From NCBI GenBank assembly GCA_028690035.1, contig JAQVCA010000006.1, positions 124,001-188,000 of the forward strand: a DNA stretch of 64,000 nucleotides, given 5' to 3'. The position numbers were made by a program, and so were the translations under genes. Positions 3,652 through 23,829 of this stretch are shown here, piece after piece. The DNA comes from Comamonas sp. Lineage in GTDB: Bacteria > Pseudomonadota > Gammaproteobacteria > Burkholderiales > Burkholderiaceae_C. Position 1 is the stretch's first letter, and each line of letters starts with the position of its first letter. A model generated the notes under the pieces. The model was not told the origin of the DNA, made no database searches, and saw only the letters and a program-made list of their open reading frames with translations.

Positions 3652-3663
3652 GGAGATATTTCT

Positions 3664-4116: not shown

Positions 4117-4119
4117 GCC

Positions 4120-4848: not shown

Positions 4849-4851
4849 GCC

Positions 4852-5064
4852 ATGAACCACGCTGTCTTAAGCCAAAGAATTTTTGACACCGTACAGCAGC
4901 TGCCTGCCGCCTTGCAGCAAGAAGTGCTGGACTTTGCGGCGTTTCTGGCCCAGCGCGTCCAGGCATCTGCACAACAGGAATGGCACGACCTGCAGGCTGC
5001 GCAAACCACCGCGTTGCACGACGTATGGGACAACCCCGAAGACGAGGTGTGGAATGACGCTTGA
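4852..5064 (+). CDS. DUF2281-like small antitoxin
   Basis: A 70-aa acidic protein starting 3 bp after csm3. Its N-terminal half (RIFDTVQQLPAALQQEVLDF, then a helix AFLAQRV) matches the pattern of DUF2281-type antitoxins, where an LP..lq.Ev.dFv.fL helix precedes a disordered C-terminal tail. Here the tail ends NPEDEVWNDA. The downstream MazF/PemK-like gene overlaps it by 11 bp, the usual organisation of a type II toxin-antitoxin pair. Both genes lie in the middle of the csm operon on the same strand and are probably co-transcribed with it. Family assignment is from pattern only. Confidence 0.75.
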   Translation: MNHAVLSQRIFDTVQQLPAALQQEVLDFAAFLAQRVQASAQQEWHDLQAAQTTALHDVWDNPEDEVWNDA

Positions 5065-5392: not shown

Positions 5393-6370
5393 ATGCAAAC
5401 CTACCGCCTCACCCTGCAACCCCTGTCCGCTTTGGGCACGCCCCTGGCGGGCGACACGCTGTTTGGCCAGCTGTGCTGGACGCTGCGCCACCAGCTGGGC
5501 AACGACGCCCTGACCGCCCTGCTGGCAGGCTACACCCAGGGCCAGCCCTTTGCGGTGGTGTCCGATGCGCTGCCGCAGGGCCACCTGCCCTTGCCCAGCC
5601 TGCCCAGCAGCGCCTGGCAGGCCGAGGCGGGCAGCGACCGCAAGGTTTTAAAGAAAAAACGCTGGTTGCCCTTATCCAGCTTGCGCGAGCAGCTACCAAA
5701 ATGGCAGCAATTGGCACAGGCCGACAGCGCCCTGGGCGCCACCCAGGAACGCGCCCAGCCACACAACACCATCAACCGCCAGACCGGCACCACCGGCACC
5801 GGCATGTTTGCCCCGTACACCATGGGCCAGACGTGGCTAGCGCCCGGCAGCCAGTTCGATGTGTACGTGGCCCTCGATAGCGCGCGCCTGTCGGTGGCGC
5901 AACTGCAGGCCGCTTTCACGTACATCGGCCAACACGGCTATGGGCGCGATGCCAGCATTGGCCTGGGCAAATTTGCGTTGGTGGGCGAGCCCACACCCGT
6001 CACCTGGGAGCCACCCAGCCAGGGCGCACCCAACGCCTGGCTCACGCTGGCCCCTTGCGCGCCGCAAGGCCAAGGCTTTTGCCCGGTGCGCAGCCACTGG
6101 CACAGCGTGACGCGCTTTGGCCGCCATGGCGATGTGGCCGTGCAAAGCGGCACGCCCTTCAAGCGCCCGGTGCTGCTGGCCAAAACTGCCAGCGTGTTCT
6201 GGCCCGAGCAGCTGGACGTGCAGCGCACCTTCATCGGCCAAGGCCTTGGGGGTACGGCGGCGCCCATCTCACTGACCCTGCCCGAGACAGTGCAGCAAGG
6301 CTACGCCCCCGTGGTACCGATCCATATTCCCAAAACCATAGCGCCTAGCGCAGACGTGGAGCGCGTATGA
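5393..6370 (+). CDS. csm4: Csm4, RAMP subunit binding the crRNA 5' handle
   Basis: A 325-aa Cas5-group RAMP that caps the crRNA 5' tag and contacts Cas10. The N-terminus YRLTLQPLSALGTPLAGDTLFGQLCWTL is the typical Csm4 beginning (RAMP beta strand, then the GDTLFGQLCW loop). A glycine-rich loop IGQHGYGRDASIGLGKF sits near residues 180-195, and the C-terminal IHIPKTIAP ends the protein. The ATG follows the toxin stop with no spacer. The stop overlaps the csm5 start (ATGA), so the two are translationally coupled. Confidence 0.95.
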   Translation: MQTYRLTLQPLSALGTPLAGDTLFGQLCWTLRHQLGNDALTALLAGYTQGQPFAVVSDALPQGHLPLPSLPSSAWQAEAGSDRKVLKKKRWLPLSSLREQLPKWQQLAQADSALGATQERAQPHNTINRQTGTTGTGMFAPYTMGQTWLAPGSQFDVYVALDSARLSVAQLQAAFTYIGQHGYGRDASIGLGKFALVGEPTPVTWEPPSQGAPNAWLTLAPCAPQGQGFCPVRSHWHSVTRFGRHGDVAVQSGTPFKRPVLLAKTASVFWPEQLDVQRTFIGQGLGGTAAPISLTLPETVQQGYAPVVPIHIPKTIAPSADVERV

Positions 6371-8124: not shown

Positions 8125-9170
8125 GCATGCAAGCGCCTACACGGCACCAGCACCAGCACCAGCACGACGGCCACCCCCTGCCCATAGCGCGCTACCGCTT
8201 TAGCGCGCGTGCGGTGGATGCCGTGCAGCTGCCGTCCTACGCCGGATCGCTGCTGCGCGGGCAGTTTGGCGCTGCGCTGCGCCATCTGGCCTGCATGACG
8301 CGCCAGCCCAGCTGCACCGACTGCCCGCTGCGCAGCACCTGCCCCTACCCCGGCATTTTTGAAGCCCCCGCGCCCGCGCAGCACCAGCTGCAGCGCTTTA
8401 GCGCCATTCCCAACGCCTACGTGGTCGAGCCGCCCGCGCCCTTGGCACAGGCCACACCGGCGGTGCAGGCCACCGAGCGCAGCCTGCAGCCGGGCCACAT
8501 GCTGAACTTTCACCTGGTGCTCATCGGCCATGCCGTGGCGCAGCTGCCCCTCATCATCGTGGCCTGGCAACGCGCCCTGGCGCGCGGCCTGGGCACCCAG
8601 CGCAGCCGCCTGGAGCTGGAGCAGGTCGATTGGCAAGACGCCAGCGACCAGCTCCAGCCCATCTGGCACGCCCAGCAACCCCACATCCAGCCCCATGCCG
8701 CCAGCCTGACCGTGCCAGCGGCCCCCACCGCTTGCCAGGCACTGCAGCTGCACCTGCACACCCCTTTGCGCCTGCAGCACCAAGGCCACGCCCTGCCCCC
8801 GGCCCGGCTGACACCGCGCACCCTGATCAGCGCCGTGGCGCGGCGCACGGCGCTGGCGCTGGAGTTCCACGCCCAGCAAGCGCACTGGGGCGCCCAGGTG
8901 CCCGCCACCATTGCCCTGGCCGAGTCCCTCCACGACCAGCGCCAGTTGCACTGGTTTGACTGGACGCGCTACAGCAGCCGCCAGCAGCAAACCATGGCCC
9001 TGGGCGGCGTGCTGGGCACCTGGCAACTGCACGGCCCTGCCGACACGCTGGCCCAGCTGTGGCCCTGGCTCTGGCTGGGCCAATGGCTGCACATCGGCAA
9101 AAACGCCACCATGGGGCTGGGGGGCTACCGGCTCACGGCTGGCCAGATGGTGGCAACTGCCACGGGTTGA
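8121..9170 (+). CDS. cas6: Cas6, pre-crRNA processing endoribonuclease
   Basis: A 349-aa type III Cas6 that cuts CRISPR transcripts at the base of the repeat hairpin. N-terminal RAMP fold (PIARYRFSARAVDAVQLPSY, GSLLRGQFGAALR), then a four-cysteine motif CMTRQPSCTDCPLRSTCPY often seen in this Cas6 group. The C-terminal glycine-rich loop is LHIGKNATMGLGGYRL. The ATG at 8121 overlaps the csm5 stop; an alternative ATG at 8127 is possible. Residues 8-18 include a His/Gln-rich stretch of no clear meaning. Its 3' end overlaps the convergent PIN toxin gene by 38 bp. Confidence 0.93.
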   Translation: MSMQAPTRHQHQHQHDGHPLPIARYRFSARAVDAVQLPSYAGSLLRGQFGAALRHLACMTRQPSCTDCPLRSTCPYPGIFEAPAPAQHQLQRFSAIPNAYVVEPPAPLAQATPAVQATERSLQPGHMLNFHLVLIGHAVAQLPLIIVAWQRALARGLGTQRSRLELEQVDWQDASDQLQPIWHAQQPHIQPHAASLTVPAAPTACQALQLHLHTPLRLQHQGHALPPARLTPRTLISAVARRTALALEFHAQQAHWGAQVPATIALAESLHDQRQLHWFDWTRYSSRQQQTMALGGVLGTWQLHGPADTLAQLWPWLWLGQWLHIGKNATMGLGGYRLTAGQMVATATG

Positions 9171-10034: not shown

Positions 10035-10343
10035 ATGACCACCTGGTTCGTCAGCCGCCACCCCGGCGCATTGCAATGGATGCAGCAATGCGGCCCCGCG
10101 TTTGACTGCCATGTGCCACACCTGGACACGGCCCAAGTGCAGCGCGGCGACACCGTGATTGGCACGCTGCCCGTGAACCTGGCCGCGCAGGTGTGCGCGC
10201 GCGGTGCGACCTACCTGCACTTGGTGCTGGAGATGCCAGCACAACAACGCGGCCAGGAACTCAGCGCGCACGATCTGCAGGCGCTGGGCGCTACGCTGCA
10301 GCCATTTCACGTTCAACCCCTCAAAACCCGACCCGCACCATGA
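10035..10343 (+). CDS. csx16: Csx16 (VVA1548 family), predicted ring nuclease, copy 1
   Basis: A 102-aa protein with TTWFVSRHPGALQWM at the N-terminus, GDTVIGTLPVNLAAQVCARGA in the middle and RGQELSAHDLQALGA near the end, the recognised Csx16 pattern. Csx16 is a small Rossmann-like protein of type III loci considered a ring nuclease that degrades cyclic oligoadenylate and so switches the response off. A paralogue at 22364 shares about 70% of residues by eye. The stop overlaps the start of the csx2-like remnant (ATGA). No strong ribosome-binding site is visible. Confidence 0.9.
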   Translation: MTTWFVSRHPGALQWMQQCGPAFDCHVPHLDTAQVQRGDTVIGTLPVNLAAQVCARGATYLHLVLEMPAQQRGQELSAHDLQALGATLQPFHVQPLKTRPAP

Positions 10344-10617: not shown

Positions 10618-11868
10618 ATGAAAAAACACACCCTGCTGGCCACCACAGGCGCCTCGCCCCAAGTCGTCACCGAAACCCTGTACGCCATCCACGACAAAAA
10701 TCTGCAATGGCCCGATGACATCTACCTCATCACCACCAGCGTTGGCAAAAAAGAAGCGGTCAAAGGATTGCTGGAAGACGGTCATTTGCAACGTCTGTGC
10801 CATGAACTCAACCGCCCTATGCCCACTTTTGATGCCGACCACGTATTGGTCACCCCGGGGGCCGATGGCACCGAAGTGGAAGATGCCCGCTCCCTGGCCG
10901 ACCACGAGGCCCTGGCCAACTTCATCATGACCGAGGTGCGCAACCGCACCGCCAGCCCCGATACCAGCTTGCACGCCTCGCTGGCCGGCGGGCGCAAGAC
11001 CATGACCTTTTACATTGGCTACGCCATGAGCCTGTTTGGGCGTGTGCAAGACACCTTGAGCCATGTGCTGGTGAGCAAAGACTACGAGACCCTGCGCGGC
11101 TTCTGGTTTCCCACACAGGCCCAGGCCCACCGCTACGTGGCGAACCACAAGGGACAAACGCTAGATGCCAGCACTGCCGAGGTCACGCTGGCGCGCATCC
11201 CGTTTATTCGCCATCGGCGCAACCTGCCACAGGTGCTGCTGCAAAACAGTACGACGGTGAAATTTGCCGACTTGGTGGAACTCATCAACTTGGGCGAGAA
11301 CCCTGCCGCCATTCGCCTGATCGTTGATTTGCCCACCCAAACCGTGCGCGTGCAAGGAGAGGGCGGCACGATCAAGATAGACACTCGGCTGGGTCTGCTG
11401 GAACTGGCGTTCTACGCCTTCATGGCACGGGCCACCCAAGAAAGTGAAAGCGATTGGACGCGACCCCATAAGGACAAACCTGACACAGCGTTGGCACAAG
11501 TACTGCTGCAAGAGCTGTTGCCTCTTTGCGGCTTGGAATCCAGCAACGACCGGGCGATTAACTTCAAACGACTGGAAGAATTCAACTTTAAGACCGAAAC
11601 CTTCAAAAGCGACACGCTCAAAGCGCTCAAGGACGGTATGCCTCAAAACTGGTTTGATTCACGAAAAAACAAAATTCTGCACAACCTCGCAGAAAAGCTC
11701 CCTGAAAGTTTGGTGCGCTGGATAGCCCCGACCAGTATTTGGACCGAAGACGGCAATCGCTTGGCCGATGAAGATATAGACAAAACCCTTAAAGGTGGCG
11801 GCTACGGCTTGCCTTTGCGCAGCCATCAAATCCAGATATTGGAACCCACTGGGCCTCAACTTCGGTAA
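10618..11868 (+). CDS. csm6: Csm6/NE0113-family (TIGR02584) CARF protein, copy 1
   Basis: A 416-aa CRISPR-associated protein. The N-terminal CARF-like Rossmann domain shows LLATTGASPQVVTETLYA (residues 6-23) and the ligand-site loop SLAGGRKTM (residues 121-129). The family is annotated as Csm6-type ring nuclease, expected to bind cyclic oligoadenylate made by Cas10. The C-terminal half has no certain catalytic motif. An RKNKILH string fits Rx4-6H numerically, but the paralogue at 22717 lacks it at the aligned place, so a HEPN nuclease is doubtful. It lies 24 bp after the csx2 remnant and upstream of array 1. Confidence 0.85.
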   Translation: MKKHTLLATTGASPQVVTETLYAIHDKNLQWPDDIYLITTSVGKKEAVKGLLEDGHLQRLCHELNRPMPTFDADHVLVTPGADGTEVEDARSLADHEALANFIMTEVRNRTASPDTSLHASLAGGRKTMTFYIGYAMSLFGRVQDTLSHVLVSKDYETLRGFWFPTQAQAHRYVANHKGQTLDASTAEVTLARIPFIRHRRNLPQVLLQNSTTVKFADLVELINLGENPAAIRLIVDLPTQTVRVQGEGGTIKIDTRLGLLELAFYAFMARATQESESDWTRPHKDKPDTALAQVLLQELLPLCGLESSNDRAINFKRLEEFNFKTETFKSDTLKALKDGMPQNWFDSRKNKILHNLAEKLPESLVRWIAPTSIWTEDGNRLADEDIDKTLKGGGYGLPLRSHQIQILEPTGPQLR

Positions 11869-12083: not shown

Positions 12084-12303
12084 GGCTCTTGATTTAATAG
12101 CTGATCGCGCTTGCCCAGCAAGGGCTAGAGGCCGATTTGGCTTGAAAACCTGGCGGCAGCCGCTACAATCGCCCCCAGCCCCGAAAAACCGGCCACAAGC
12201 CACAGCGGGCAGGCACGGCAAAAAAGACATCTTTTGTGAAAGCAAAAAAGTCCATAACCCCCTTTGCAAGTGCTTGTCAGACAACGGTTTTTTAGGCTCA
12301 GGA
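12084..12303 (+). promoter_or_regulatory. Promoter and leader of CRISPR array 1
   Basis: This 220-bp block is closely similar to the block before array 2. It begins with a half copy of the intergenic repeat (ATAGCTGATCGCGCTTGCCC, 12097-12116). A sigma70-type promoter follows: TTGAAA (12142-12147), 16-bp spacer, TACAAT (12164-12169). The near-repeat part of the leader shares the blocks AGTCCATAACCCCC, GCAAGTGCTTGTCAG and ACGGTTTTTTAGGCTCAGG with leader 2. Conservation of promoter spacing in both copies supports transcription rightwards through the array. Confidence 0.75.
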
Positions 12304-12615
12304 GTCCCGGGACAGCCCTGATTTCAAAGGGATTAAGACGTCATACCGTTTTGACCAAGCTGAACCAGTTCGTCCCGGGACAGCCCTGATTTCAAAGGGA
12401 TTAAGACCCCTGCTGAAGTGATAACTGTATGAGGTTTCTTCTGTCCCGGGACAGCCCTGATTTCAAAGGGATTAAGACTGAAAGTAATAGACCCCGATGT
12501 AAAACATCGAGGCGTCCCGGGACAGCCCTGATTTCAAAGGGATTAAGACTTTGCATATCAATTCCTATAAGTGAAAAGAAGCAAAGTCCCGGGACAGCCC
12601 TGATTTCAAACGGAT
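12304..12615 (+). CRISPR. CRISPR array 1: 5 repeats (last degenerate), 4 spacers, version A repeats
   Basis: 36-bp repeats at 12304-12339, 12372-12407, 12443-12478, 12514-12549 and a truncated one from 12586. Each begins GTCCCGGGAC and ends GGGATTAAGAC. The fifth matches for 25 bp, then diverges at 12611. Spacers are 32, 35, 35 and 36 bp. A hairpin CCCT...AGGG in the repeat and an ATTAAGAC 5' handle suit Cas6 processing. The leader is on the left and decay on the right, so orientation is plus. All repeats are the palindromic version found in the leader-proximal part of array 2. Confidence 0.97.
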
Positions 12616-12730
12616 GCAGCGGATACGCCGCCCAATGGCCCCAAGCCCATCGCAAGCTTACGACGCAGGCCATTTTTTCCGGCAGCCCAGATACTTCCTC
12701 CCATCGCACAGCAACACATCGGGAGGCTTT

Positions 12731-13594
12731 ATGGCTGCAACACACAACAACATCGTCATTGGTCGGGCACAGCGCACAGGGGTGGGCGCCAAAACTGCCT
12801 ACGAGGGCAGCGTCATTGCCCGCGCCATGCAGCGCGCTGGCAACAATCCGCACCTCAAAGGACACATCCATGAAGTGCTGATTCAGGACGCACGCAATGT
12901 GCGCAACCTGCTCAGCATGAACGGTGCCAGCACCCAGCTGACCAAGAGCACCACGGCGGGCACCGTGGATTTGGTGACCACGCGCGGCGGCAAGGTGATT
13001 GAGCGCATCCAGGTCAAGGACGTGACCAGCAGCTCGGGCATCAACAAGCTGGTCAAGCAGTGCGCCGATGGCAAGTACCGCAGCGCCAAGCTGATTGGCT
13101 CGGACGAGACCGCGCAGATGTTCAACAAAGCGGCAGAAAAAGCGGGCATCAGCAAGCGCATGAGCAGCTCGGGTGTGTCCAGTAAAACCTCCACCAGCTT
13201 GGCCCAGCGGGCCGGGGCCACGGGCAGTGGCACCCTGGGCAGTGCCATGGCCCAGGCGGCGCGCAGCGGTGGCGCAGCTGGGGCAGTGATTGGCGCGGGA
13301 GTGGAAGCGGTGCGCGGCGTGGTGGACTGGAGCAACGGCCAAGCCGATGGCGTGGAGGTCATCGGGCGCGTGACCAAGGCTGCCGCCAAGGGCGGGGTCA
13401 GCGGCGCGGCAGCCGGTGCGGCGGCCACCGCTGCGGGTGCAGGTGCTGCGGCTGCGGTCACCGCCCTGGGGGTGACGGGCGGCGCAGCCGTGGTGGCCAC
13501 GGTGGGCGCGCCGCTGCTGGCGGCTGTGGGGGTGGGCTACGTCGTCTCGGAAGTGTTCGACGGCGTGTGCGACTTCTTCAGCGATCTGTTCTGA
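12731..13594 (+). CDS. Putative PD-(D/E)XK-like nuclease with glycine-zipper membrane tail
   Basis: A 287-aa protein not assigned to a named family. In the first ~110 residues, HIHEVLIQDARN (Glu48) precedes VDLVTTRGGKVIERIQVKD, giving Asp80, Gln94 and Lys96. This spacing resembles a PD-(D/E)XK core with Gln in place of the second acid (D-x13-QxK); it is a suggestion only. From about residue 160 the protein is Ala/Gly-rich with small-residue repeats (GGAAGAVIGAGVEAV; GVSGAAAGAAATAAGAGAAAAV; VGAPLLAAVGVGYVV), like glycine-zipper transmembrane helices, ending in FDGVCDFFSDLF. The ATG at 12731 follows GGGAGG. It is the first gene after array 1 and precedes the kinase/vWA/PP2C genes. Confidence 0.6.
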   Translation: MAATHNNIVIGRAQRTGVGAKTAYEGSVIARAMQRAGNNPHLKGHIHEVLIQDARNVRNLLSMNGASTQLTKSTTAGTVDLVTTRGGKVIERIQVKDVTSSSGINKLVKQCADGKYRSAKLIGSDETAQMFNKAAEKAGISKRMSSSGVSSKTSTSLAQRAGATGSGTLGSAMAQAARSGGAAGAVIGAGVEAVRGVVDWSNGQADGVEVIGRVTKAAAKGGVSGAAAGAAATAAGAGAAAAVTALGVTGGAAVVATVGAPLLAAVGVGYVVSEVFDGVCDFFSDLF

Positions 13595-13697
13595 CCCCGA
13601 CCCGCAAGCTTGACAGCGGCCCCTTCTTCCAAGGTCGCAGCACACTGGCAACACATCGAAAAAAACACCACATCCACACCACACAGGAGACAGCCCC

Positions 13698-14696
13698 ATG
13701 ACCTTGACCGTTCTCAGTCCCGCAGGCGAGCGCGTGCAGCTCAACCCCCAGCCCCTGGCACAAGGGGGCGAGGCCCGCGTGCATGAGGTGCCCGCCTTCC
13801 CCAGGGCCGTGGTCAAGCTGTACCACCCCGAAGTGCTGGCCAGCCGTGGCGATGCCCTGCGCCAGAAGATCGAGGCCATGAGCACCGACCCCAAGCTGGC
13901 ATCTCTGAAAGAGAACCCGCACCTGGCCTGGCCACTCTTTGGCGTGCGCGATGAGCAGGGCCAATGGCGCGGTTACGCCATGCGTCGCGTGCAGGGGCAA
14001 GCGCTGAACAAGATGGCGCACGCCATGGCCTACCGCGAGCACTGGCCCGCGCTGGATCGCCTGGCCGTCGTCAACTACCTGCTGAGTTTGTTCAGCACCT
14101 TGCAGCAGCTGCAGCAAGCCGGTGTGCTGGTGGGGGATTACAACCCGGCCAACTTCCTGTGCGACACCAGCAGCTACCGCATCACTTGCATCGACTGCGA
14201 CAGCTGGCAGGTAACGGCCCAGGGCAAGCTGTTTGCCTGCCCGGTGTCGGTGCCCGACATGCTGCCCCCCGAGCTGCTGGACAAGAGCCTGGGGCAGGTG
14301 CAGCGCACGGAGCGCACCGAGGCGTTTGCCATCGCCATCGTGCTGTTCAAGACCCTGATGCTGGGGCGCCACCCCTACGACGTGGTCGGCGGGCACGGCC
14401 CGGTGGAGAACATCCGCCGGGGCTACTTTCCCTACGGCCTAGGTGGCGGTGGCATCCCCAAGGGGCCGTGGTTCAACATCTGGAGCCACCTGCCCTTCAA
14501 ACTCAAGGAGCAGCTCATTGCCACCTTCAAAGAAGGCGCGCACCAACCACAACACCGCACCACCCTGGCGCACTGGCTGGAGCTGCTGACCCTGTACCGC
14601 AAGGAGCTGGAAAAGGGCTGGCACGACGCTGCACTGCGCCCGCTGCAGCCCAAATCGCGCGACTACCGAGGGCACTCCCAACCCAGCGTGGCCTGA
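13698..14696 (+). CDS. Protein kinase-like protein of a TerY-P type triad
   Basis: A 332-aa protein kinase-fold protein. Seen: a glycine loop LAQGGEARVHEV (residues 20-31), Lys40 in AVVKLYHP for ATP phosphates, a catalytic loop VGDYNPANFL with Asp147 and Asn152, and a DFG-equivalent CIDCDSWQV with Asp166/Asp168. All key catalytic residues are present, so Ser/Thr kinase activity is plausible. Kinase, vWA (next gene) and PP2C (third) in one operon form the TerY-phosphorylation triad described for tellurium/stress and phage-defence contexts. An AGGAG precedes the ATG by 8-9 bases. The target protein is unknown; neighbours are candidates. Confidence 0.85.
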   Translation: MTLTVLSPAGERVQLNPQPLAQGGEARVHEVPAFPRAVVKLYHPEVLASRGDALRQKIEAMSTDPKLASLKENPHLAWPLFGVRDEQGQWRGYAMRRVQGQALNKMAHAMAYREHWPALDRLAVVNYLLSLFSTLQQLQQAGVLVGDYNPANFLCDTSSYRITCIDCDSWQVTAQGKLFACPVSVPDMLPPELLDKSLGQVQRTERTEAFAIAIVLFKTLMLGRHPYDVVGGHGPVENIRRGYFPYGLGGGGIPKGPWFNIWSHLPFKLKEQLIATFKEGAHQPQHRTTLAHWLELLTLYRKELEKGWHDAALRPLQPKSRDYRGHSQPSVA

Positions 14697-14819
14697 GCCA
14701 AGCTGCTGTCGCCCCACCCAAGCACACAACAACACAACACGCACAGGAGACGCTTACCCATGTTCTCAAAAAACTTTGCCAGCTTCTTTCCCGATAACTC
14801 TTTTCAGGAGACCCTCAGC

Positions 14820-15479
14820 ATGCCGCAAGAAACCCAGCAAGACCTCATTGACAACCCCTCACCACGCTGCCCGGTGGCCCTGGTGCTGGACACCTCCGGC
14901 TCCATGGACGGCGCACCCATCCAGGCACTGAATGCCGGAGCGCAGCTGTTCATCGAGGAGGTCAAAGCGCACGACCTGGCGCGCTGGTCGGTGGACCTGG
15001 CGGTCTATACCGCTGGGGGCCAGGCGCAGTGCCTGCAGGAGTTCATCGGCATTGAGCAGATCGGTGGCATTGCTCCCATGCAGGCCAGTGGCCAGACCCC
15101 GCTGGGCGCAGCCGTGGGCATGGCGCTGCACGATCTGGAGGTGCGCAAAAAAACCTACCGCGACAGCGGCGTGCCCTACTACCAGCCCTGGCTGGTCATC
15201 ATCAGCGACGGCGCGCCCACCGACAGCTGGCAAGACGCGGCCCAGCGCGCGCGCCAGCTGGCCGAACAGCGCAAGCTGGTGAGCCTGCCCATTGGGGTTG
15301 CCGGTGCCGACCTGCGCATCCTGGGCCAGTTCTCCAACAAACCCGCCGTGGCTTTGCAGGGGCTGAAGTTTGTCGAGTTCTTCCAGTGGCTGTCGGCCTC
15401 CATGGCGCGGGTGTCGGCCAGCACTTCGTCAGACGCATCTGTGGCCCTGCCCAGCATGAACAGCTGGGGGAGCATCTGA
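14820..15479 (+). CDS. TerY-like von Willebrand factor A domain protein
   Basis: A vWA-fold protein of 219 aa. The MIDAS metal site is intact: DTSGSM (DxSxS) near residue 24 from this start, the Thr in ASGQTPLGAA, and the Asp in IISDGAPTDSW. TerY-like vWA proteins act as scaffolds whose phosphorylation state is set by the partner kinase and PP2C. Two starts are possible: 14820 (AGGAG 9 nt upstream; chosen because the core begins shortly after) or 14760 (also AGGAG at 10 nt), which adds 20 residues. Its stop is 2 bp before the PP2C start, so translation is likely coupled. Confidence 0.88.
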   Translation: MPQETQQDLIDNPSPRCPVALVLDTSGSMDGAPIQALNAGAQLFIEEVKAHDLARWSVDLAVYTAGGQAQCLQEFIGIEQIGGIAPMQASGQTPLGAAVGMALHDLEVRKKTYRDSGVPYYQPWLVIISDGAPTDSWQDAAQRARQLAEQRKLVSLPIGVAGADLRILGQFSNKPAVALQGLKFVEFFQWLSASMARVSASTSSDASVALPSMNSWGSI

Positions 15480-15481
15480 GC

Positions 15482-16438
15482 ATGAAACACAAACGCACCC
15501 CTGCCACCCCGCCACGCCATGGCAAACGCCCCCTGTTGCGCCTGCCCGGCAAGGCGCGCCCCAGCGCTGCCGCGCTGCTTACACCGGTGCCGGTGCCGGT
15601 GCCCAGCGTGGCCCTGCAAAGCTGGCAGCTCACCGGCGCCGCCATCACTGGCCTGGCGCATTGGCAAAAGCACCTGCCCTGCCAGGATGCGGTGCGCTGG
15701 AGCCAGCAGCCCCGCCCCGTGCTGGTGCTGGCCGATGGTGCAGGCTCGGCCGCAGTGAGCGAGCTGGGCGCACAGGCCCTCACACAGGGCATGCTGCGTT
15801 TTATCGCCAGCCTGGAAGATGAGGTCAGCGCCTGGCTGGACCAGGAGCACAGCCCCGAGGCCTTGGACGCCCTGCAGGCCCGCTGGCGCCTGCGCCTGCT
15901 GCGCCATGCCCAGGGCCTGCTGCACGACCTGGCCGAGCAGCACCGGCGCAGTGTGCGCGATGTGCGCGCCACCTTGCACCTTGCCGTGCTGGGGCAAAAG
16001 CATTGCTTCTGGTGGCAGGTGGGCGATGGCGCCATCGTGGTGCAAGAACCCGCCGCGCCCCCCGATGCGCCCCCCGATGCGCCCACCAGCAGCTTGCGTG
16101 TGCTGGGCAGCATTGAGCAGGCCAAAGGCGAGTTTGCCAACCAAACCTGCTTTGTCGATGCCGCCAGCCTGGACGATGTGCAGTGCGGCCATCTGGCCAG
16201 CCACCGCACCTTGGGCTGGGCGCTGATGAGCGACGGCGGCGCAGAAAAACTGGTGGCCCACGATGCCAGCCGCGTCGCCGCCCGCCTGGGGCAGTGGCTG
16301 GAGCGCACCGCACAGCGCAAACTCTCGCCCCAAGACCTGGCCGTGGCCTACCACGATGCAGCCATGTGGCAACGCACCACCTTGGACGACCGCGCCATCG
16401 TTCTGGCCGGGCGCAGCCTGCCAGAACCGGCGCCTTAA
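15482..16438 (+). CDS. PP2C-family Ser/Thr phosphatase
   Basis: A 318-aa PP2C (PPM) phosphatase, expected to remove phosphates placed by the neighbouring kinase. Motifs in order: LPCQDAV (metal Asp), VLADGAGSAAVS (the ADG metal-binding motif), WQVGDGAIVV, ALMSDGGAEK (metal Asp) and TLDDRAIVL (final DDxxxI motif). The first ~50 residues are a basic, Pro-rich extension with a PVPVPVP run. A tandem APPDAPPDAP repeat lies near residue 200. It is the last member of the triad; 142 bp separate it from the next gene. Confidence 0.92.
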   Translation: MKHKRTPATPPRHGKRPLLRLPGKARPSAAALLTPVPVPVPSVALQSWQLTGAAITGLAHWQKHLPCQDAVRWSQQPRPVLVLADGAGSAAVSELGAQALTQGMLRFIASLEDEVSAWLDQEHSPEALDALQARWRLRLLRHAQGLLHDLAEQHRRSVRDVRATLHLAVLGQKHCFWWQVGDGAIVVQEPAAPPDAPPDAPTSSLRVLGSIEQAKGEFANQTCFVDAASLDDVQCGHLASHRTLGWALMSDGGAEKLVAHDASRVAARLGQWLERTAQRKLSPQDLAVAYHDAAMWQRTTLDDRAIVLAGRSLPEPAP

Positions 16439-16500
16439 CCTGCCGCCGCCCCACGCACGGCCCACACGGCAATGGACGGCAATGGAAGGCGTACGGCACG

Positions 16501-16580
16501 GCTATACTGGAACAGCCCGCACGGGCACGCGGCTGTTTTCCAATATTTGTCAAATAAATCAATAGGTTAATTTTTAATTC
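16501..16580 (+). promoter_or_regulatory. AT-rich intergenic region with hairpin, possible terminator/promoter before the DUF3800-TPR gene
   Basis: In otherwise GC-rich surroundings this gap contains TATACT (16503-16508), a -10-like hexamer, then a 7-bp stem AACAGCC (16511-16517) / GGCTGTT (16531-16537) followed by TTTC, and an A/T-rich stretch up to the ATG at 16581. It may end the triad transcript, start a new one, or both. No good -35 was found. Confidence 0.3.
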
Positions 16581-19340
16581 ATGCTTGCCTTACGCCTACC
16601 TGCCTGCCCGGTGCAGCTGCCCACCAGCTTTTTGACCACCCTGGACGCTGCCCTGGCACCCGGTGCGATGCCATCCATTGCCAGCATCACCCAGGCGTTG
16701 CAGGCCCTGCTGACGAAAAACACCCCCCAAGTCATTCTGGGCAGCGACGCCACCCCCGTGACGTGGTGGCTGCTGGCAGCCAGCCAGCTCCCCCAGGCCC
16801 AGCGGTGGCTGTACAGCGGCCAGCGCTGGGCCCGGCTGGACCCCGCAGAGCAGGTGCCCCAGCCCCCACAGGCCCCCCCGGCCCCGGCAGCCGCTCCTGC
16901 GCCCGCTGTGGTCCGCGTGGACCCGCCTGCTCCCGTTCCTGTTGCTGCGCCCGCTCCTGCGCCTGCGCCTGCTGCGGTCGCCGCGCCGCCCGCAGCACCC
17001 AGGGCGCCCAAGCCCCTCACCGATGCCCAGCTGCAAAGCGAAACGTTCAAACTGGCCGCCTGGGGGCCTTCGCCAGAACGCTTGCGCCAGCTGGATGACT
17101 TGGCCGAGCAGGCCCTGCAACCGGGCCGCCCCGCATCGCTACACGGGCAACTGCAGGCCGTGCGCCGCAACGGCGAAAAGGCCTATGAACTAGGCTTGGA
17201 ACTGGATGCGCTGTTTCGCAGCCAGGGGGCTCAGGCCGCACAGGCATGGCTGGATAAAAAATCGCGGGTCGTACCCCACGAACGCATGGCCACGCACCTG
17301 CGCATCACCCTGGACAAGTTGATAAAGCGCCAGCACGAGCAGGCCCAACGCCAAAGCGCCGCCCAAGCGCAACAATACAAATCGAATGTGGCCGTGCAAA
17401 TGCACGATGGCCAGCACCCCAACAGCCTGCACCGGCAGGCCCCAGCGACACACTGGCGCATTTACATCGACGAAACCGGCAGCGTGTTCGACGAGCAGGC
17501 CAGCGCCCTGAACCCGACAGACAAAGACGTGGGGCGCATCGTGGCCCTGGCCGTGCCCGCGTCCACCAAGCTGCCCGAGCTGGGCAACTTTCACGCCACC
17601 CAGGCCAGCCCCGCGCAGGTGGACAACGTGCTGCAAACCCTGCTTGATGCGCGGGTGGGCATTCTGGGCTTTAGCGTGCAAGACAGCACAGCGCGGCACA
17701 GCTACTGGCTAGGTCAGGTGCTGCATTTGATTCGCTGGACTTTGCTGCAACTGCCCGTGCCAGAAAACGCACCCTCGTGCCAGGTGCAAATCTATATTGA
17801 GAAAAGAGACGGCTACACCAGCGCCGACAGCCTGCAGGTGCTGAGCACCACGCTAGAGAGTGAATTTCGCACCCTAGATCCCGAGCGCTTTCGCCACATG
17901 GGCTTGAAGCTGGCATTCATGGACAAAAGCCATCCCATGAATGGCTACGTGGATGCCGTGGCCTTCACCTGGGGCAGCCCGGCGGGCATCAGCAAAGACC
18001 GCCTGAAAAAATCCCAGCTGCGCGGCCACTGCCTGGTGGACGCAGCCCAAGAGAGCCTGCACCACCTGTTTTTGAGCCTGAGCGAGCACAGCGCCCTGGC
18101 CCCGCAAGACTGGTACGCCCTGTGCAGCGCCGCCAGCGGCGAGCGCGAGGGCAGCTTCTTGCAGCGCTCGCTGGCGCGCATCGGCGCCCAGGCCGCACAA
18201 GACAGCCTGCTGTGGCAGCGTTACCTCAGCGAGGTGCAGCAACGCCTGGCGCACAAGCAATACCGGTTGAGCGAACTGGGCTGCGCCCTGGCCTGGCTCA
18301 AACGCCACAGCCCTGCGCAGCAAACCCTGCCGCCCGCGCTGCACCTGCTGCTGCTGGCCAATGAGCTGGTGCTGCACAACCACCAGGGTAAGACCGACCT
18401 TCACCTGCTGGAGCAATGCTTGGACATGGCCATCAAGCTGCGCGATGAGGAACCCGCCCTGAGCGCAGAAACCGTGCTGCGCATTGCCACAGCCTGCACC
18501 AACCAGTTTGAATTTAAGGCGTTACAGCCCACCCTTGAAGAATGGCTGCGGCAACCGGTGGCTGTGCCCGGCCTGCTGCTGCACGGCAAACTGCAATCGG
18601 CGCTGGGGCAAATCAGCGCCTTTACCGGCCAGGGCGAGAAGGCGCTGCAACAGTTCGATGCGGCCCTGGCTTGCTTTGCACGGCTGAGCGACCCCGCCCA
18701 AGCCCAACGCGAACAGACGCAAACGCGCAGCTACCGCCTGGTGGCGCAGATGGATTTGTGCCAGCAGCAAGGCGCACCACAGTCGCAAACCCAGGCCCTG
18801 GTGCAGCAGCTGCAACAGCACTTGGGCGATAAATCCCCCGAAAACCTCAGCCGCTCCCTGGCCCACAGCACACAAGTGCAGCGCTTTGCACATTACCTGT
18901 GGCTGCGCGCCCTGGTGCACCTGCCCCAAACTTTGGACAGCGCACGCCAGGCCTATGTGCAACTGCAGCCCCAATGGCACAGCGGCAAAGACCACCCCTG
19001 GCCCCTCATCAACGCCTACCGCGCCTGGCTGCTGCACGATGGCGGGCAGCACGCCCAGGCGCAAGCGCACATGCAAAACGCCATCCAATCCTGCATGGAT
19101 GAGAGCCATGGCCCCACGCTGCAGTGGATGGCCGAAGTGCTGCGCACCCTGGCGTATGCCCTGAACCTGGAGTTGCCCGCGGACGCACAGCCCAGCGCCG
19201 CGCAACGCCAGCACCTGCAACAGCTCCTGCCCCACGCGCCGCATGCCGCCCTGGCGGCCTTTGCCCTGGCGGGCCTGGGCACCACGCATGCACAGCTGCT
19301 GCAGCACCTGGCAGACTGCCTGCCCTTCAATTTCCATTGA
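16581..19340 (+). CDS. Large DUF3800-like (RNase H-fold) protein with C-terminal TPR-like helices
   Basis: A 919-aa protein with no named family known to me. Layout: residues 1-90 a small domain; 93-148 a Pro/Ala linker; 150-285 helices; about 290-480 a DUF3800-like domain; 540-919 helical repeats of TPR type with many Ala, Leu and Gln. The DUF3800 pattern is seen in WRIYIDETGS (Asp297, Glu298), VQIYIEKRDGY and a late NGYVDAVAFTW (Asp458); DUF3800 proteins are RNase H-like and proposed nucleases. The start at 16581 lacks a clear ribosome-binding site. The Card1-like gene follows after 28 bp, so the two are probably co-transcribed. Confidence 0.65.
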   Translation: MLALRLPACPVQLPTSFLTTLDAALAPGAMPSIASITQALQALLTKNTPQVILGSDATPVTWWLLAASQLPQAQRWLYSGQRWARLDPAEQVPQPPQAPPAPAAAPAPAVVRVDPPAPVPVAAPAPAPAPAAVAAPPAAPRAPKPLTDAQLQSETFKLAAWGPSPERLRQLDDLAEQALQPGRPASLHGQLQAVRRNGEKAYELGLELDALFRSQGAQAAQAWLDKKSRVVPHERMATHLRITLDKLIKRQHEQAQRQSAAQAQQYKSNVAVQMHDGQHPNSLHRQAPATHWRIYIDETGSVFDEQASALNPTDKDVGRIVALAVPASTKLPELGNFHATQASPAQVDNVLQTLLDARVGILGFSVQDSTARHSYWLGQVLHLIRWTLLQLPVPENAPSCQVQIYIEKRDGYTSADSLQVLSTTLESEFRTLDPERFRHMGLKLAFMDKSHPMNGYVDAVAFTWGSPAGISKDRLKKSQLRGHCLVDAAQESLHHLFLSLSEHSALAPQDWYALCSAASGEREGSFLQRSLARIGAQAAQDSLLWQRYLSEVQQRLAHKQYRLSELGCALAWLKRHSPAQQTLPPALHLLLLANELVLHNHQGKTDLHLLEQCLDMAIKLRDEEPALSAETVLRIATACTNQFEFKALQPTLEEWLRQPVAVPGLLLHGKLQSALGQISAFTGQGEKALQQFDAALACFARLSDPAQAQREQTQTRSYRLVAQMDLCQQQGAPQSQTQALVQQLQQHLGDKSPENLSRSLAHSTQVQRFAHYLWLRALVHLPQTLDSARQAYVQLQPQWHSGKDHPWPLINAYRAWLLHDGGQHAQAQAHMQNAIQSCMDESHGPTLQWMAEVLRTLAYALNLELPADAQPSAAQRQHLQQLLPHAPHAALAAFALAGLGTTHAQLLQHLADCLPFNFH

Positions 19341-19368
19341 GTCGGCCAGCACGCCACCGGAGCGCAAC

Positions 19369-20706
19369 ATGACCACATCCATTTACGTTTACGCGATTTC
19401 CGAGTTCACCCTGCCGGCGCTGGAGGCCTGCCTGAGCCTGCGGCCCGAGCACATTGTGCTCATCGCCAGCGATGGTGCGGACTTTGCCAGGCAGGCTCTG
19501 CAGCTGCAGGGCCGGCTGCAAGAGCGGCTGAGCGGCAGCCGGGTCGAAATCCTGTCGTCAGCCAGCACGGGGCAGAGCCTGGGCGGTGACGACATCATCG
19601 CCAACCAGGCATGGCTGGCCGCGCACCTGGTGCCGCGCCTGCAAGAGGTGACGCGCCAGGGCGGGGTCTGTGCTGCCAACCTCACTGGCGGCACCAAGGC
19701 CATGGCCCTGGCCCTGGCCGCCTGCCACGACTGGCAGCGCCTGGACTACCAGCCCCTGGGCAACAAGAACACGCCCATGCAAAGCGTGCGCGCCTCGCAG
19801 CAGCCGCGCTACCAGGCGCAGCCCAGCGCCGTGCCCCACCTGCACGACGCCCGGCCCCTGGACATTGCCCGGCTGCACAACGAAAACGCCCGCGTCAGCA
19901 CGCCCAACCGCGTGCGCCAATACCCGCACGCCCTGGAATTGGCCCAGCGCATCTGGGATGCACAGCAAGCGCAGCAGCCCGCGCTGCAGGCACTGTTTGC
20001 AGGCTTGGAGCGCATCTGGGCGCATGAGCGCGAGCAGCACCAGCAAGCCAGCATCACCTTGGCGTGGTCGCAATTTCTGGCCGACGGCAGCCATGCCCAG
20101 GCGCACCTGGACGATATCCGCGCCTGGGTCGCGGCCCTGGGCAGCCTGCATGCCTCGACAACCCCGCCCCTGCTGCACGCCGACGCCCAGTGCATCACCC
20201 TGCCGGGCAACGACCCAGGCAAAAGCAAAGCCCACAAACATCTACGCGACTGGATCAGCGGCGACTGGCTGGAGCAGCTGGTGCAGCACTGGCTGGTGCA
20301 ACAAGACATTCCCGCCACCGCCATGGAGAGCAACCTCATTGGCGCCGAGGAAGACGCCAGTGGCAGCCAGCGCGAGGCGGATTTGCTCGTCCACCACCGC
20401 CACGTCACCTCGCTCATTGAAATCAAGGCCGGGCTGCCGCCAAACAAGACGCCGGGGGAGCTGGAAAACCAGCTCTCCTCGCTGGGCTCGCGCTTTGGCA
20501 AAACCCGCAAGGCCCTGTTTCTGGGGCCAGAGGCGCTGCGCGCCATGCGTGCCCAGCGCCGCTCGGAAGACTTTTGGCTGCGCTGCCGGGCCAACCAGGT
20601 CACGTTGCTGCTCACGCCCGAACAGCTGTACCGTTTTGTGCAGGGAGACAACAAGATCTGGCCCGACCTGAAACGCGGCCACGTGCCGCCCGAGTTTGCC
20701 CGCTGA
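19369..20706 (+). CDS. card1: Card1/Can2-like CARF nuclease (DUF1887 type)
   Basis: A 445-aa effector expected to be activated by cyclic oligoadenylate (cA4 in known Card1/Can2 proteins) and to nick DNA or cut RNA. The N-terminal CARF domain begins SIYVYAISEFTLPALEA and has the ligand loop NLTGGTKAM (Asn104-Met112). The C-terminal PD-(D/E)XK domain shows SGDWLEQLV, then READLLV (Asp338) and SLIEIKAG (Glu351, Lys353), giving an intact D-x12-ExK site. It is somewhat longer than Card1 (about 370 aa) owing to a middle segment. GGAG precedes the ATG. It is the last gene before the array 2 leader. Confidence 0.9.
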   Translation: MTTSIYVYAISEFTLPALEACLSLRPEHIVLIASDGADFARQALQLQGRLQERLSGSRVEILSSASTGQSLGGDDIIANQAWLAAHLVPRLQEVTRQGGVCAANLTGGTKAMALALAACHDWQRLDYQPLGNKNTPMQSVRASQQPRYQAQPSAVPHLHDARPLDIARLHNENARVSTPNRVRQYPHALELAQRIWDAQQAQQPALQALFAGLERIWAHEREQHQQASITLAWSQFLADGSHAQAHLDDIRAWVAALGSLHASTTPPLLHADAQCITLPGNDPGKSKAHKHLRDWISGDWLEQLVQHWLVQQDIPATAMESNLIGAEEDASGSQREADLLVHHRHVTSLIEIKAGLPPNKTPGELENQLSSLGSRFGKTRKALFLGPEALRAMRAQRRSEDFWLRCRANQVTLLLTPEQLYRFVQGDNKIWPDLKRGHVPPEFAR

Positions 20707-20727
20707 ACGCGCCCTGCCCAAGCGCAC

Positions 20728-20939
20728 TTTTGATAGCTGCTGGCGCTTACCCAGCAAGGGCCAGAGGCCAATTTTGCTTGCAATCCCGCGTGCCGTGGCT
20801 ACAATGGCGCGTAGCCCTGAAAACCGGCCACAAGCCAGCCCCGACATGCACCGCCCAAGAGACATCTTTCGCCGATCCGAAAAAGTCCATAACCCCCCTT
20901 GCAAGTGCTTGTCAGCCAACGGTTTTTTAGGCTCAGGGG
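20728..20939 (+). promoter_or_regulatory. Promoter and leader of CRISPR array 2
   Basis: Homologous to the block before array 1. It has a half copy of the intergenic repeat (ATAGCTGCTGGCGCTTACCC, 20732-20751), then TTGCAA (20778-20783), 16-bp spacer and TACAAT (20800-20805). The shared leader core (GTCCATAACCCCC, GCAAGTGCTTGTCAG, CAACGGTTTTTTAGGCTCAGG) runs to the first repeat. The part between promoter and core is less alike between copies, so promoter and repeat-proximal leader appear under selection. Confidence 0.78.
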
Positions 20940-22148
20940 GTCCCGGGACAGCCCTGATTTCAAAGGGATTAAGACGTCTGGTCGTTAGAGAGGTGGGCGT
21001 CGAGCATGGTCCCGGGACAGCCCTGATTTCAAAGGGATTAAGACGTTGTTGATAATAGCCATGATTTTTCTCCTTAGTCCCGGGACAGCCCTGATTTCAA
21101 AGGGATTAAGACAGATACATTACCACAGGTTGATCTGACTAATTAGGGTCCCGGGACAGCCCTGATTTCAAAGGGATTAAGACACTGCGCACTTCGGAGG
21201 TCTGAGAATTGGGGTCCCGGGACAGCCCTGATTTCAAAGGGATTAAGACCTAAACTCAACAGCAACTTGAAGTTCTTCCTTAGGGTCCCGGGACAGCCCT
21301 GATTTCAAAGGGATTAAGACCGTTTGAACACGCTGGTCTTCACTCCAGTTTCAGTCCCGGGACAGCCCTGATTTCAAAGGGATTAAGACGGATGGCGACC
21401 CATCCGGCGGCTGCCATGTCGTCCCGGGACAGCCCTGATTTCAAAGGGATTAAGACGCATCTCTCCGAGCATTCCCAGTAAAGCTTTACAGTCCCGGGAC
21501 AGCCCTGATTTCAAAGGGATTAAGACGAGATCTTGATTTCGATCCCCTTAGTAAACTGAAGTCCCGGGACAGCCCTGATTTCAAAGGGATTAAGACTATG
21601 AAGCACCGCCTGGAGGATTAATCCTCCGTCCCGGGACAGCCCTGATTTCAAAGGGATTAAGACCGTTGAGTGCCGTGTGAACGGTGATGCATATACGTTT
21701 CAAGCCAGCCCTGATTTCAAAGGGATTAAGACCTAGCTTGAAACCAACAAACACTGAACAAACACGTTTCAAGCCAGCCCTGATTTCAAAGGGATTAAGA
21801 CGCTTTCAGCACCCAAGATAGGCATATCCACTGCAGTTTCAAGCCAGCCCTGATTTCAAAGGGATTAAGACCCATCTGCGTATTCGATTGCCGGGCCATC
21901 CAGGGTTTCAAGCCAGCCCTGATTTCAAAGGGATTAAGACCAAGCATTCTTGTGCTTGCTGTACGTCAGATGCGTTTCAAGCCAGCCCTGATTTCAAAGG
22001 GATTAAGACAGCGGCATGCTTGCAAGTTCTTGCTCCTGCTTGGTTTCAAGCCAGCCCTGATTTCAAAGGGATTAAGACGCAGTGGCGGTCACTTTCCCGG
22101 CCTTGTTAAGGCGTTTCAAGCCAGCCCTGATTTCAAAGGGATTAAGAC
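20940..22148 (+). CRISPR. CRISPR array 2: 18 repeats, 17 spacers, with a repeat-version switch
   Basis: 36-bp repeats start at 20940, 21009, 21077, 21148, 21214, 21285, 21354, 21421, 21491, 21561, 21628 (version A, beginning GTCCCGGGAC) and at 21697, 21766, 21836, 21905, 21974, 22043, 22113 (version B, beginning GTTTCAAGCC). The last 26 bp of all are the same, ending GGGATTAAGAC. Spacers are 30-35 bp. The leader lies left of the first repeat, so version A is younger. The last repeat is complete. The common 3' part holds the CCCT/AGGG hairpin and the ATTAAGAC handle needed by Cas6 and Csm. Confidence 0.98.
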
Positions 22149-22363: not shown

Positions 22364-22714
22364 ATGACGGTCTGGTTTGTTAGCCGCCATCCCGGCGCGT
22401 TGGAGTGGATGCAGGGACATGGCCCGGCGTTCGATCGCCATGTGGAGCATTTGGCGCCGGACGATGTGCAGCCGGGCGATCGGGTGGTGGGCACCTTGCC
22501 CATGCAGCTGGCCGCGCAGGTGTGCGCCCGGGGCGCCGAGTATTGGCATCTGGTGCTGCACCTGCCCCAGCCCGTGCGCGGGCAGGAGCTGTCGGCGCAG
22601 CAGCTCAGCCACCTGGGCGCGACGCTGCAGCGCTTTCATGTGCAGCCGGTGGGCGCGGGGGTGTGGGGTGAAGTGGCAGAGGCAGAGGCACAGCACGTGC
22701 CCGAAAGGGGATAG
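22364..22714 (+). CDS. csx16: Csx16 (VVA1548 family), predicted ring nuclease, copy 2
   Basis: A 116-aa paralogue of the protein at 10035: VWFVSRHPGALEWM, GDRVVGTLPMQLAAQVCARGA and RGQELSAQQLSHLGATLQ are shared, about 70% identity by eye. The C-terminus is longer and ends in an acidic tail. The role is expected to be cleavage of cyclic oligoadenylate. AAAGGAGG precedes the ATG by about 10 bases; GTG/TTG starts 6-9 bp upstream are possible. It pairs with the second Csm6/NE0113 gene 2 bp downstream, repeating the csx16-csm6 order of copy 1. Confidence 0.9.
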   Translation: MTVWFVSRHPGALEWMQGHGPAFDRHVEHLAPDDVQPGDRVVGTLPMQLAAQVCARGAEYWHLVLHLPQPVRGQELSAQQLSHLGATLQRFHVQPVGAGVWGEVAEAEAQHVPERG

Positions 22715-22716
22715 AA

Positions 22717-23829
22717 ATGGCGTTTGCGCGGCGTATTTTGTTGGCGGTGACGGGTTTGTATCCGCAAATCCTGACTGAGACGGTGTACGCGCTGGGCGGG
22801 TTTGCCACGCAGCCCCAGGGCCAGGAGCAGGCGCCGTTCATGCCGACCGAGATCCATTTGCTCACCACCAGCGACGGCGCCAAGCTGGCGCGCACGGCCT
22901 TGTTGCACCCCGATGGTGGGCAGTTCCACGCGTTGCTGGCCAATTACCCGGCGTTGGGTCGGCCTGTGTTCCATGAGGGGCAGATCCACGTCATCCACAA
23001 CGCGCAGGGCCAACCGCTGGCCGATATCCGCACCCCCGAAGAAAACGCCTGCGCCGCCGATTGCATTACGGCGCTGATGGCGCAGCTGACCAGCGACGCG
23101 CAGGCGCAGCTGCATGTGTCGATTGCCGGGGGGCGCAAGACGATGGGGTTTTACCTGGGCTATGCGTTTTCGCTGTTCGCGCGCCCGCAGGATGAGCTGT
23201 CGCATGTGCTGGTGAACAGCCCGTTTGAGGGGCACCCGGAGTTTTTCTTTCCCCCGGCCATGCCCCGGCGCCTGGCCACGCGCGATGGCACGCACATCGA
23301 TACGGCCGATGCGCGCATCACGCTGGCGCGCATTCCGGTGGTGCATTTGCGCCACGGCCAGCCCCAGGCGCTGCTGCAGGGCCAGGCCAGCTTTGGCGCG
23401 ACGGTGGCGGCCATCGAAAAAAGCCTGCAACCGGCGCGCCTGCGCATCGACCTGGCGCAGCGCCAGGTGCTGTGCGGCGACACCCCGGTCAAGCTGCCCC
23501 CGGCGCTGCTGGCCTGGCTGGCCTGGTGGGCCGACAACACGCTGCAAGGCCACGGCCCGCAAAGCTGGCGCACGGCCAACGCGCAGCGCTTTTTGCAGCT
23601 GTACCAGCGCGTGGTGACCATCGACGCACCGGTGTTTGAAAACGCGCAGCTGCGCCTGCAAGACGGCATGGAAAAGACGTTTTTTGAAGAAAACAACGCC
23701 AAACTGGAGCGCGCCCTGCGCACCCAGCTGGGGCCCGCCGCCCTGCCCTACCTGCTGGCCACCACAGGCAAGCGCCCGCACACGCAGCGCTGCCTGAGCT
23801 TGGCGCCCGAGGCGCTGGAGTTGGGTTGA
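22717..23829 (+). CDS. csm6: Csm6/NE0113-family (TIGR02584) CARF protein, copy 2
   Basis: A 370-aa protein. The CARF-like N-terminal domain shows ILLAVTGLYPQILTETVYAL (residues 7-26) and the ligand loop SIAGGRKTM (residues 135-143). The C-terminus has ENNAKLERALRTQLG and LATTGKR stretches aligned with the end of copy 1. No Rx4-6H HEPN motif is evident, so enzymatic activity, if any, may be ring cleavage. It starts after AAAGGGGATAGAA, 2 bp beyond csx16. The two copies share motifs but are far more diverged from each other than the csx16 pair. It is the last CRISPR-related gene. Confidence 0.85.
   Translation: MAFARRILLAVTGLYPQILTETVYALGGFATQPQGQEQAPFMPTEIHLLTTSDGAKLARTALLHPDGGQFHALLANYPALGRPVFHEGQIHVIHNAQGQPLADIRTPEENACAADCITALMAQLTSDAQAQLHVSIAGGRKTMGFYLGYAFSLFARPQDELSHVLVNSPFEGHPEFFFPPAMPRRLATRDGTHIDTADARITLARIPVVHLRHGQPQALLQGQASFGATVAAIEKSLQPARLRIDLAQRQVLCGDTPVKLPPALLAWLAWWADNTLQGHGPQSWRTANAQRFLQLYQRVVTIDAPVFENAQLRLQDGMEKTFFEENNAKLERALRTQLGPAALPYLLATTGKRPHTQRCLSLAPEALELG

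Follow-up and report, generated by a model that had tools for sequence, protein, structure and literature searches.

A kinase, vWA and PP2C triad with a TPR protein and a CARF nuclease between two CRISPR arrays: a possible accessory effector set of a type III-A locus in Comamonas sp.

In a type III-A CRISPR locus, what might be the role of six genes enclosed by its arrays? The question is raised by a 64,000-nucleotide stretch of Comamonas sp. DNA (here called the window; contig JAQVCA010000006.1, our C21, from a genome of 2.9 Mb in 22 contigs). A sequence-only reading had described a six-gene cassette enclosed by the arrays, and all six open reading frames were found there on the plus strand, encoding a membrane-type protein (MEM), a YegI/TerY-type kinase (KIN), a TerY-like vWA protein, a PP2C phosphatase, a TPR protein and a CARF-PD-(D/E)XK protein (Table 1). 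These genes belong to a real, recurrent and conserved set. The reading to which we give a probability of about 0.5 is that the cassette is an accessory effector set of the III-A locus, in which a messenger would act on the Card1/Can2-like CARF protein and a kinase-PP2C-vWA switch would license the TPR protein.

Three further lineages have related sets at their type III loci. The Chitinilyticum locus contains VWA-KIN-PP2C, NE0113, a cmr-type operon (III-B, with its cas10 tested by hidden Markov model), the TPR protein and the CARF nuclease on one strand, while a gammaproteobacterial metagenome-assembled genome (gamma MAG) contains VWA-KIN-PP2C-NE0113 and, further on, a Csx16::TPR protein and an array, with divergent III-D genes. 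A Photobacterium toruni plasmid contains a VWA-PP2C-KIN triad without the TPR protein; measured from the triad, an array is at about 4 kb, NE0113 at about 11 kb with cas1/cas2 beyond it, and a cas10 set of III-D-like kind at about 21 kb. These loci make a chance link to type III unlikely. The kinase, vWA and PP2C motifs were intact in all three aligned loci, and the internal order of the triad varies while adjacency is kept, which argues for a working unit. The Chitinilyticum and gamma MAG loci were reached through the TPR protein and the Photobacterium locus through the kinase (52 plasmid records, context read in one); Chitinilyticum was reached again with the kinase as bait and is counted once.

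A kinase tree of 21 rows, for which the program warns of long branches and from which the partial kinase of locus L067 was excluded, placed the kinases of the window, Chitinilyticum, the gamma MAG, Photobacterium and genome G549 in one set with support of 100/99, apart from 16 others; in this tree KIN did not group with the remaining kinases sampled from the class and the order. Type III genes (III-A, III-B and III-D) are adjacent or close to four of the five kinases of the clade. At least 166 KIN relatives were found at E <= 1e-20, many of them on metagenome contigs, and relatives at E <= 1e-10 were present in 11 genomes of the class sample (369) and in 19 of the order sample (399), the window genome being counted in both. 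Eighteen of the 29 places outside the window were read (11 class, 7 order) by tblastn with a set of cas proteins, and none of the 17 loci outside the clade gave a type III-specific match, although a divergent cas10 could escape this search. The sequence-only reading would have taken a triad usually found away from type III as a sign of chance insertion, and here the answer is divided: four of the five clade kinases are near type III genes, and none of the 17 loci read outside the clade shows them. Matches to cas1 were limited to two of the 18 loci, neither counted as type III: in L119, by reading of the open reading frames, a YegI/TerY-type triad lies beside a I-E-like CRISPR set, and in L063 such a triad lies beside a solitary cas1-like gene.

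The catalytic residues of KIN had been called intact, and both motifs were found, with a weak match to Pfam Pkinase (E 4e-4, 20.2 bits, cut-off 31.7). TerY-P triads are described in CoCoNuT type II and III-A systems, with a kinase fused at its C-terminus to a Zn-ribbon (CoCoNuT form) or an OB-fold (the form of Gao 2020) (PMC11090510; this and the other papers are cited from portions of their text). The earlier label of a TerY-P triad holds in that a TerY-like vWA protein, a PP2C and a Ser/Thr kinase with intact motifs are encoded by adjacent genes, but it does not hold for TerY-P proper: no Zn-ribbon or OB-fold fusion was found on KIN, in whose 332 amino acids Pfam finds Pkinase alone, and the kinase falls in a separate clade. 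Unlike TerY-P, the kinases of the window clade are short (328-354 amino acids in four members, 299 in a truncated fifth) and are found at type III loci. The same combination of kinase, PP2C and vWA protein is seen in YegI-PphC(YegK)-YegL of E. coli, where YegL is the vWA protein. KIN showed about 30-32% identity over 69% of the query to records from an E. coli plasmid collection, of which some carry yegI/pphC annotations. The kinase YegI is bound to the membrane (PMC13232886), whereas that of the window is short, and the membrane-type protein there is the product of a separate gene upstream. The FLSHclust survey mentions, in general terms, vWA proteins with a kinase or phosphatase near CRISPR (UAS-7, 87, 91, 100, 129, 139, 149 and 155; PMC10910872), and the window resembles these modules at the level of that general description. 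No description of a triad with a TPR protein at type III loci was found in the open-access literature, although the FLSHclust tables may list it.

The TPR protein is predicted to have two alpha/beta domains, a small N-terminal one (residues 1-86) and one in the middle, followed by a TPR superhelix at about 505-914 (predicted local distance difference test, pLDDT, of 82.5 for the model). A fold search matched the TPR half to solved TPR proteins, confirming the superhelix. The search for relatives gave at least 61 proteins, and a pattern search over 84,980 species, one genome per species, gave at least 28 loci; no copy was found in viral contigs, plasmids or phages. In an alignment of 88 rows (27 proteins from the loci and window plus 61 relatives, with possible duplicates), three acidic residues of the middle domain, D297, E298 and E407, are kept in 87 rows, the remaining row having a gap, and a fourth, D458, in all 88; the C-terminus PFNF(H/R) is also conserved. 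For the middle domain, at about residues 285-485, the predicted strand-helix order fits an RNase H fold, while the fold matches listed cover the TPR half instead. Because of the conserved acidic quartet and this compatible order of strands and helices, the TPR protein is likely a nuclease, as predicted from sequence and model. The name DUF3800, proposed earlier, was not confirmed at sequence level: Pfam gave no DUF3800 match at E<=1 in nine proteins scanned singly, and in 18 members of the set A1 it was not among the 25 of 27 families shown. An N-terminal domain of the window type is also present at two loci in which type III genes were not seen, L007 and L013.

The strongest sequence argument for a role of the TPR protein in cyclic-oligoadenylate signalling is the presence and fusion of Csx16. 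In three type III relatives Csx16 is fused at the N-terminus of the TPR protein (L010/L035, 104.5 bits; L011, 101.8; L015, 76.2; all over the TIGR02620 cut-off), whereas the window TPR protein lacks it and two stand-alone copies are encoded in the window. The fusion in relatives, together with the separate csx16 genes of the window, suggests that the TPR protein works in messenger signalling. No description of a Csx16-TPR fusion was found in the open-access literature. Near the fused gene in two gammaproteobacterial loci (L035, 14719-16540; L011, 4324-6088), SDR and Gfo/Idh-type oxidoreductases were recognised by reading.

When the genomic company of the TPR family was counted over 28 loci, one class each, type III features were found in five (L009, L010, L011, L015 and L019), L011 being included for its array, its cas6-like gene and its Csx16 fusion, and L019 for a CARF-HEPN Csx1 only. 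Five loci have Cas13, namely Cas13d in L021, L024 and L025 (the last two identified by tblastn only) and a Cas13b-like protein in L017 and L027, and seven have a Schlafen-AlbA_2/NACHT protein (L003-L006, L013, L014 and L016; assigned by cluster, with Pfam run on the L006 member). Kinases were found in one locus (L007) and an RtcR-type sigma-54 regulator in another (L018, where the match covers the AAA part). No class was given for nine loci (L008, L012, L020, L022, L023, L026 and L028-L030), of which seven are stretches below 9 kb and L029 and L030 are without gene calling. The Csm1 model matched in four of 13 genomes with a TPR locus at E <= 0.001 and in none over the cut-off, which is no proof of absence, as it also missed the III-D cas10 of G007. 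The expected co-occurrence with type III was borne out in that related sets recur there, but the TPR family is found at Cas13 and Schlafen/NACHT loci as well.

TPR-DUF3800 proteins beside Cas12a2 were reported by FLSHclust (PMC10910872), and DUF3800 nucleases in VI-F and V-A2 loci by the 2025 classification (PMC12669027). The window family is like them in having TPR and an acidic-residue domain beside an RNA-triggered CRISPR effector, and differs in having no Pfam DUF3800 and in occurring also at III-A, III-B, III-D, VI-D, VI-B-like and Schlafen/NACHT loci; the published proteins were compared by description only. The Cas13d or Cas13b-like genes beside TPR relatives lie in L021/L038, L041, L042, L037 and L039, and L038 has two cas13d genes with an array at each end. 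By cluster, the Schlafen/NACHT loci have a thymidylate-synthase-like gene in all seven and an AIR-synthase-like gene in six, a combination that recurs.

The last gene of the cassette had been called a Card1/Can2-like nuclease, which was corroborated when a profile of four sequences matched the solved structures of Can2 (7bdv, 4.9e-15) and Card1 (6wxw, 3.7e-9); PADLOC labels it CARF_PDDEXK. All four sequences of the alignment share D338, E351 and K353. Like Card1 and Can2 it combines CARF and PD-(D/E)XK, with both motif sets present, but it is divergent (three aligned relatives are 19-36% identical to the window protein) and its activation is predicted. Relatives lie directly downstream of the TPR gene in L009 and L015. 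In L015 (807-2459), Csx16 is also fused to a CARF-PD-(D/E)XK protein, at 38.2 bits, below the cut-off of 46.35; this could possibly be a self-limiting Card1/Can2-like effector. NE0113 as bait was found in 31 of the 369 class genomes; besides the window genome, G131, G262 and G294 have NE0113 and a kinase relative, but on separate contigs, so that, among these class genomes, triad and NE0113 are together only in the window genome.

For MEM, the label of membrane nuclease is supported up to a candidate motif (E48, D80 and Q94-V-K96, by reading of the sequence) and hydrophobicity and no further; the match to PADLOC PDC-M72B is weak (E 0.0011), and a structure model was left unused (pLDDT 44.5). 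The protein had also been seen as part of a type III-linked set, and this is weakened, as it goes with the kinase. At least 306 relatives were found, 14 aligned copies being 70-90% identical to the window protein. Comparison of 120 of the 306 MEM rows with 120 of the 166 KIN rows gave 15 listed coincidences in contig size, against about 1.2 expected by a rough estimate; among the matches listed, the TPR protein shared four with KIN and three with MEM. By these matches, MEM is tied to KIN rather than to type III. The other locus read, in G549, has MEM adjacent to a truncated KIN, next to phage-like genes. There (L118, 3720-6657), by reading of the open reading frames, KIN is cut short beside phage terminase-like genes and a MEM-KIN remnant is left. 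In the 369 class genomes MEM was found in the window and in one partial match (E 5.7e-4). A tblastn search of the Chitinilyticum, gamma MAG and Photobacterium stretches gave no relative of MEM, and none was found in viral contigs or plasmids; KIN was likewise not found in viral contigs.

The two arrays lie in the order csx16 - NE0113 - leader 1 - array 1 - cassette - leader 2 - array 2 - csx16 - NE0113. Aligned over 213 positions, the leaders agree at 168, and array 2 is a hybrid of 11 repeats of the variant GTCCCGGGAC... followed by seven of the variant GTTTCAAGCC..., the 3' part being common to both, which suggests that two arrays were fused by recombination. Together with the duplicated leaders, csx16 and NE0113, the change of variant suggests that the cassette arrived, or became enclosed, by recombination through the arrays. 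Gaps between the cassette genes are 2 to 142 bp. The single plus-strand terminator-like site in the cassette lies inside the end of the 919-amino-acid gene, and such sites are not enriched in the region (13 against a shuffle mean of 12.1). Since a promoter-like site is present in each leader, that of array 1 might drive the cassette. An Rfam scan of window positions 9000-25500 gave no match.

In the reading that we find most likely, a type III signal would be coupled here to protein phosphorylation. Cas10, with an HD motif and an intact GGDD, is predicted to make cyclic oligoadenylate, which would activate the Card1/Can2-related protein. The messenger may be cyclic tetraadenylate (cA4), because Csx16 is cA4-specific in published assays, degrading cA4 and not cA6 (cyclic hexaadenylate; PMC12409355). 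The TPR protein, likely a second nuclease, would be licensed by the kinase-phosphatase-vWA switch, with ring nucleases sharing in its control. Kinase and PP2C would have their target within the cassette, the TPR protein or MEM perhaps, and the vWA protein would serve as scaffold. MEM could be a membrane anchor or an output of the kinase, since YegI itself is a membrane protein, and Csx16 and the NE0113 proteins would reset the signal.

Several findings weigh against this coupling. A kinase substrate among the cassette proteins and a messenger that reaches the triad are both conjectural; no CARF domain was found in the triad proteins. The nuclease reading of the TPR protein and of MEM rests on residues, not on a recognised family, and MEM is a candidate at motif level. 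Csx16 was ruled out as the N-terminal domain of the window TPR protein (profile comparison probability of 0.7%), and no NCBIfam family was found there. The TPR family also occurs at loci where no type III genes were seen, seven of the 28 having Schlafen/NACHT and five Cas13; the Photobacterium plasmid shows triad and TPR protein to be separable, and no type III genes were found in 20 kb around the MEM-KIN pair of G549. In addition, the count of four type III-linked clade kinases is biased, since the window or the TPR protein first led to three of them.

Part of this evidence would fit another arrangement, in which MEM, KIN, vWA protein and PP2C form an autonomous TerY-P-like defence module and only the TPR protein and CARF nuclease are true type III accessories. 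TerY-P-like modules are stand-alone antiphage systems according to Gao et al. 2020, as quoted in PMC11090510, and the 0/17 result outside the clade, the G549 pair, the excess of contig coincidences between MEM and KIN over those with the TPR protein, and the larger family of MEM (at least 306 relatives against at least 61) all point the same way. The clade kinases speak for a type III tie, four of five being beside or near its genes with varying triad order, and one clade locus was reached with the kinase as bait, by which Chitinilyticum was reached again; we consider an autonomous module possible but less likely.

It is improbable that the TPR protein is instead an RNA-processing or reset factor, for CRISPR RNA (crRNA) maturation or decay or for messenger clearance. 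The three Csx16 fusions would fit such a role, and the FLSHclust authors proposed interference or crRNA biogenesis/degradation for TPR-DUF3800 beside Cas12a2 (PMC10910872), but crRNA processing is hard to picture for a family that is also found beside Schlafen/NACHT proteins, where no array was found, and beside kinases (L007). That recombination brought the cassette to its place between the arrays without any functional tie is very improbable: the duplicated leader, csx16 and NE0113, the two repeat variants and the lack of the TPR protein in 40 other genomes of the relatives sample (0/40) would agree with it, but the recurrence of related genes, about 31-59% identical to those of the window, at type III loci in three further lineages does not.

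If the accessory effector reading is extended to the whole family, the TPR nuclease might be an interchangeable executioner in bacterial immune systems that sense RNA (CRISPR of type III, Cas13 and Cas12a2 kinds, and NACHT), wired to cyclic oligoadenylate through a fused Csx16 domain or else to a dedicated kinase-phosphatase-vWA switch, a tentative and doubtful proposal. Were it true, the window would be a CRISPR system relaying its alarm to protein phosphorylation, and the nuclease common to type III, Cas13 and NACHT loci would be an effector shared by immune systems with no other relation. In the portions of the literature seen, the outputs of type III are for the most part effectors to which the nucleotide messenger binds directly; with a recurrent switch of this kind, reversible phosphorylation would join them, and the YegI/TerY kinases, which are poorly understood, would gain a link to the sensing of phage RNA that can be tested. 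New leads are the fusion of Csx16 and the occurrence of the TPR family at Cas13 and NACHT loci as well.

Table 1. Features of the locus, with positions in the window
Feature	Position	Strand	Remarks
Type III-A cas operon (cas10/csm1, csm2, csm3, csm4, csm5, cas6-like)	934..9170	+	upstream of the cassette
Csx16, copy 1	10035..10343	+	TIGR02620, 104.6 bits (cut-off 46.35)
NE0113/CARF5 protein, copy 1	10618..11868	+	NCBIfam name: ring nuclease Csm6
Leader 1	12090..12301	+	by alignment with leader 2
CRISPR array 1	about 12304..12621	+	five repeats, fifth degenerate
MEM	12731..13594	+	287 amino acids; candidate PD-(D/E)XK-like N-terminal part, hydrophobic glycine-rich C-terminal part
KIN, YegI/TerY-type protein kinase	13698..14696	+	332 amino acids; motifs GDYNPANF and IDCDS
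vWA protein, TerY-like	14820..15479 (alternative start 14760)	+	MIDAS DTSGS; over Pfam cut-off
PP2C phosphatase	15482..16438 (alternative start 15386)	+	D85, D182, D251, D302, D303 conserved; over Pfam cut-off; ATG 15482, 2 bp past the vWA stop, likelier
TPR protein	16581..19340	+	919 amino acids; three-part predicted architecture
CARF-PD-(D/E)XK protein, Card1/Can2 kind	19369..20706 (alternative start 19243)	+	ATG 19369 likelier
Leader 2	20726..20937	+	by alignment with leader 1
CRISPR array 2	about 20940..22148	+	18 repeats
Csx16, copy 2	22370..22714	+	TIGR02620, 100 bits
NE0113/CARF5 protein, copy 2	22717..23829	+

The III-A assignment of the window locus is based on the arrays and on Cas10/Csm1 (676 bits), Csm2, Csm3 and Csm4, all over the NCBIfam cut-offs, and Csm5, narrowly so (39.2 against 38.3). 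The cas6-like gene had no NCBIfam match; L011_0, in the same cluster as its protein, is a Cas6 by PADLOC. Near the type III loci of Chitinilyticum (L009, 14438-16241) and Photobacterium (L117, 25702-27447) there are paired GTPases, 45-49% identical, the longer one of the L009 pair having a glycine-rich tail. By reading of the open reading frames, the window has a small toxin-like frame near 4883-5392, between csm3 and csm4, and a VapBC-like toxin-antitoxin pair on the minus strand (9133-9962), which separates the cas genes from csx16.

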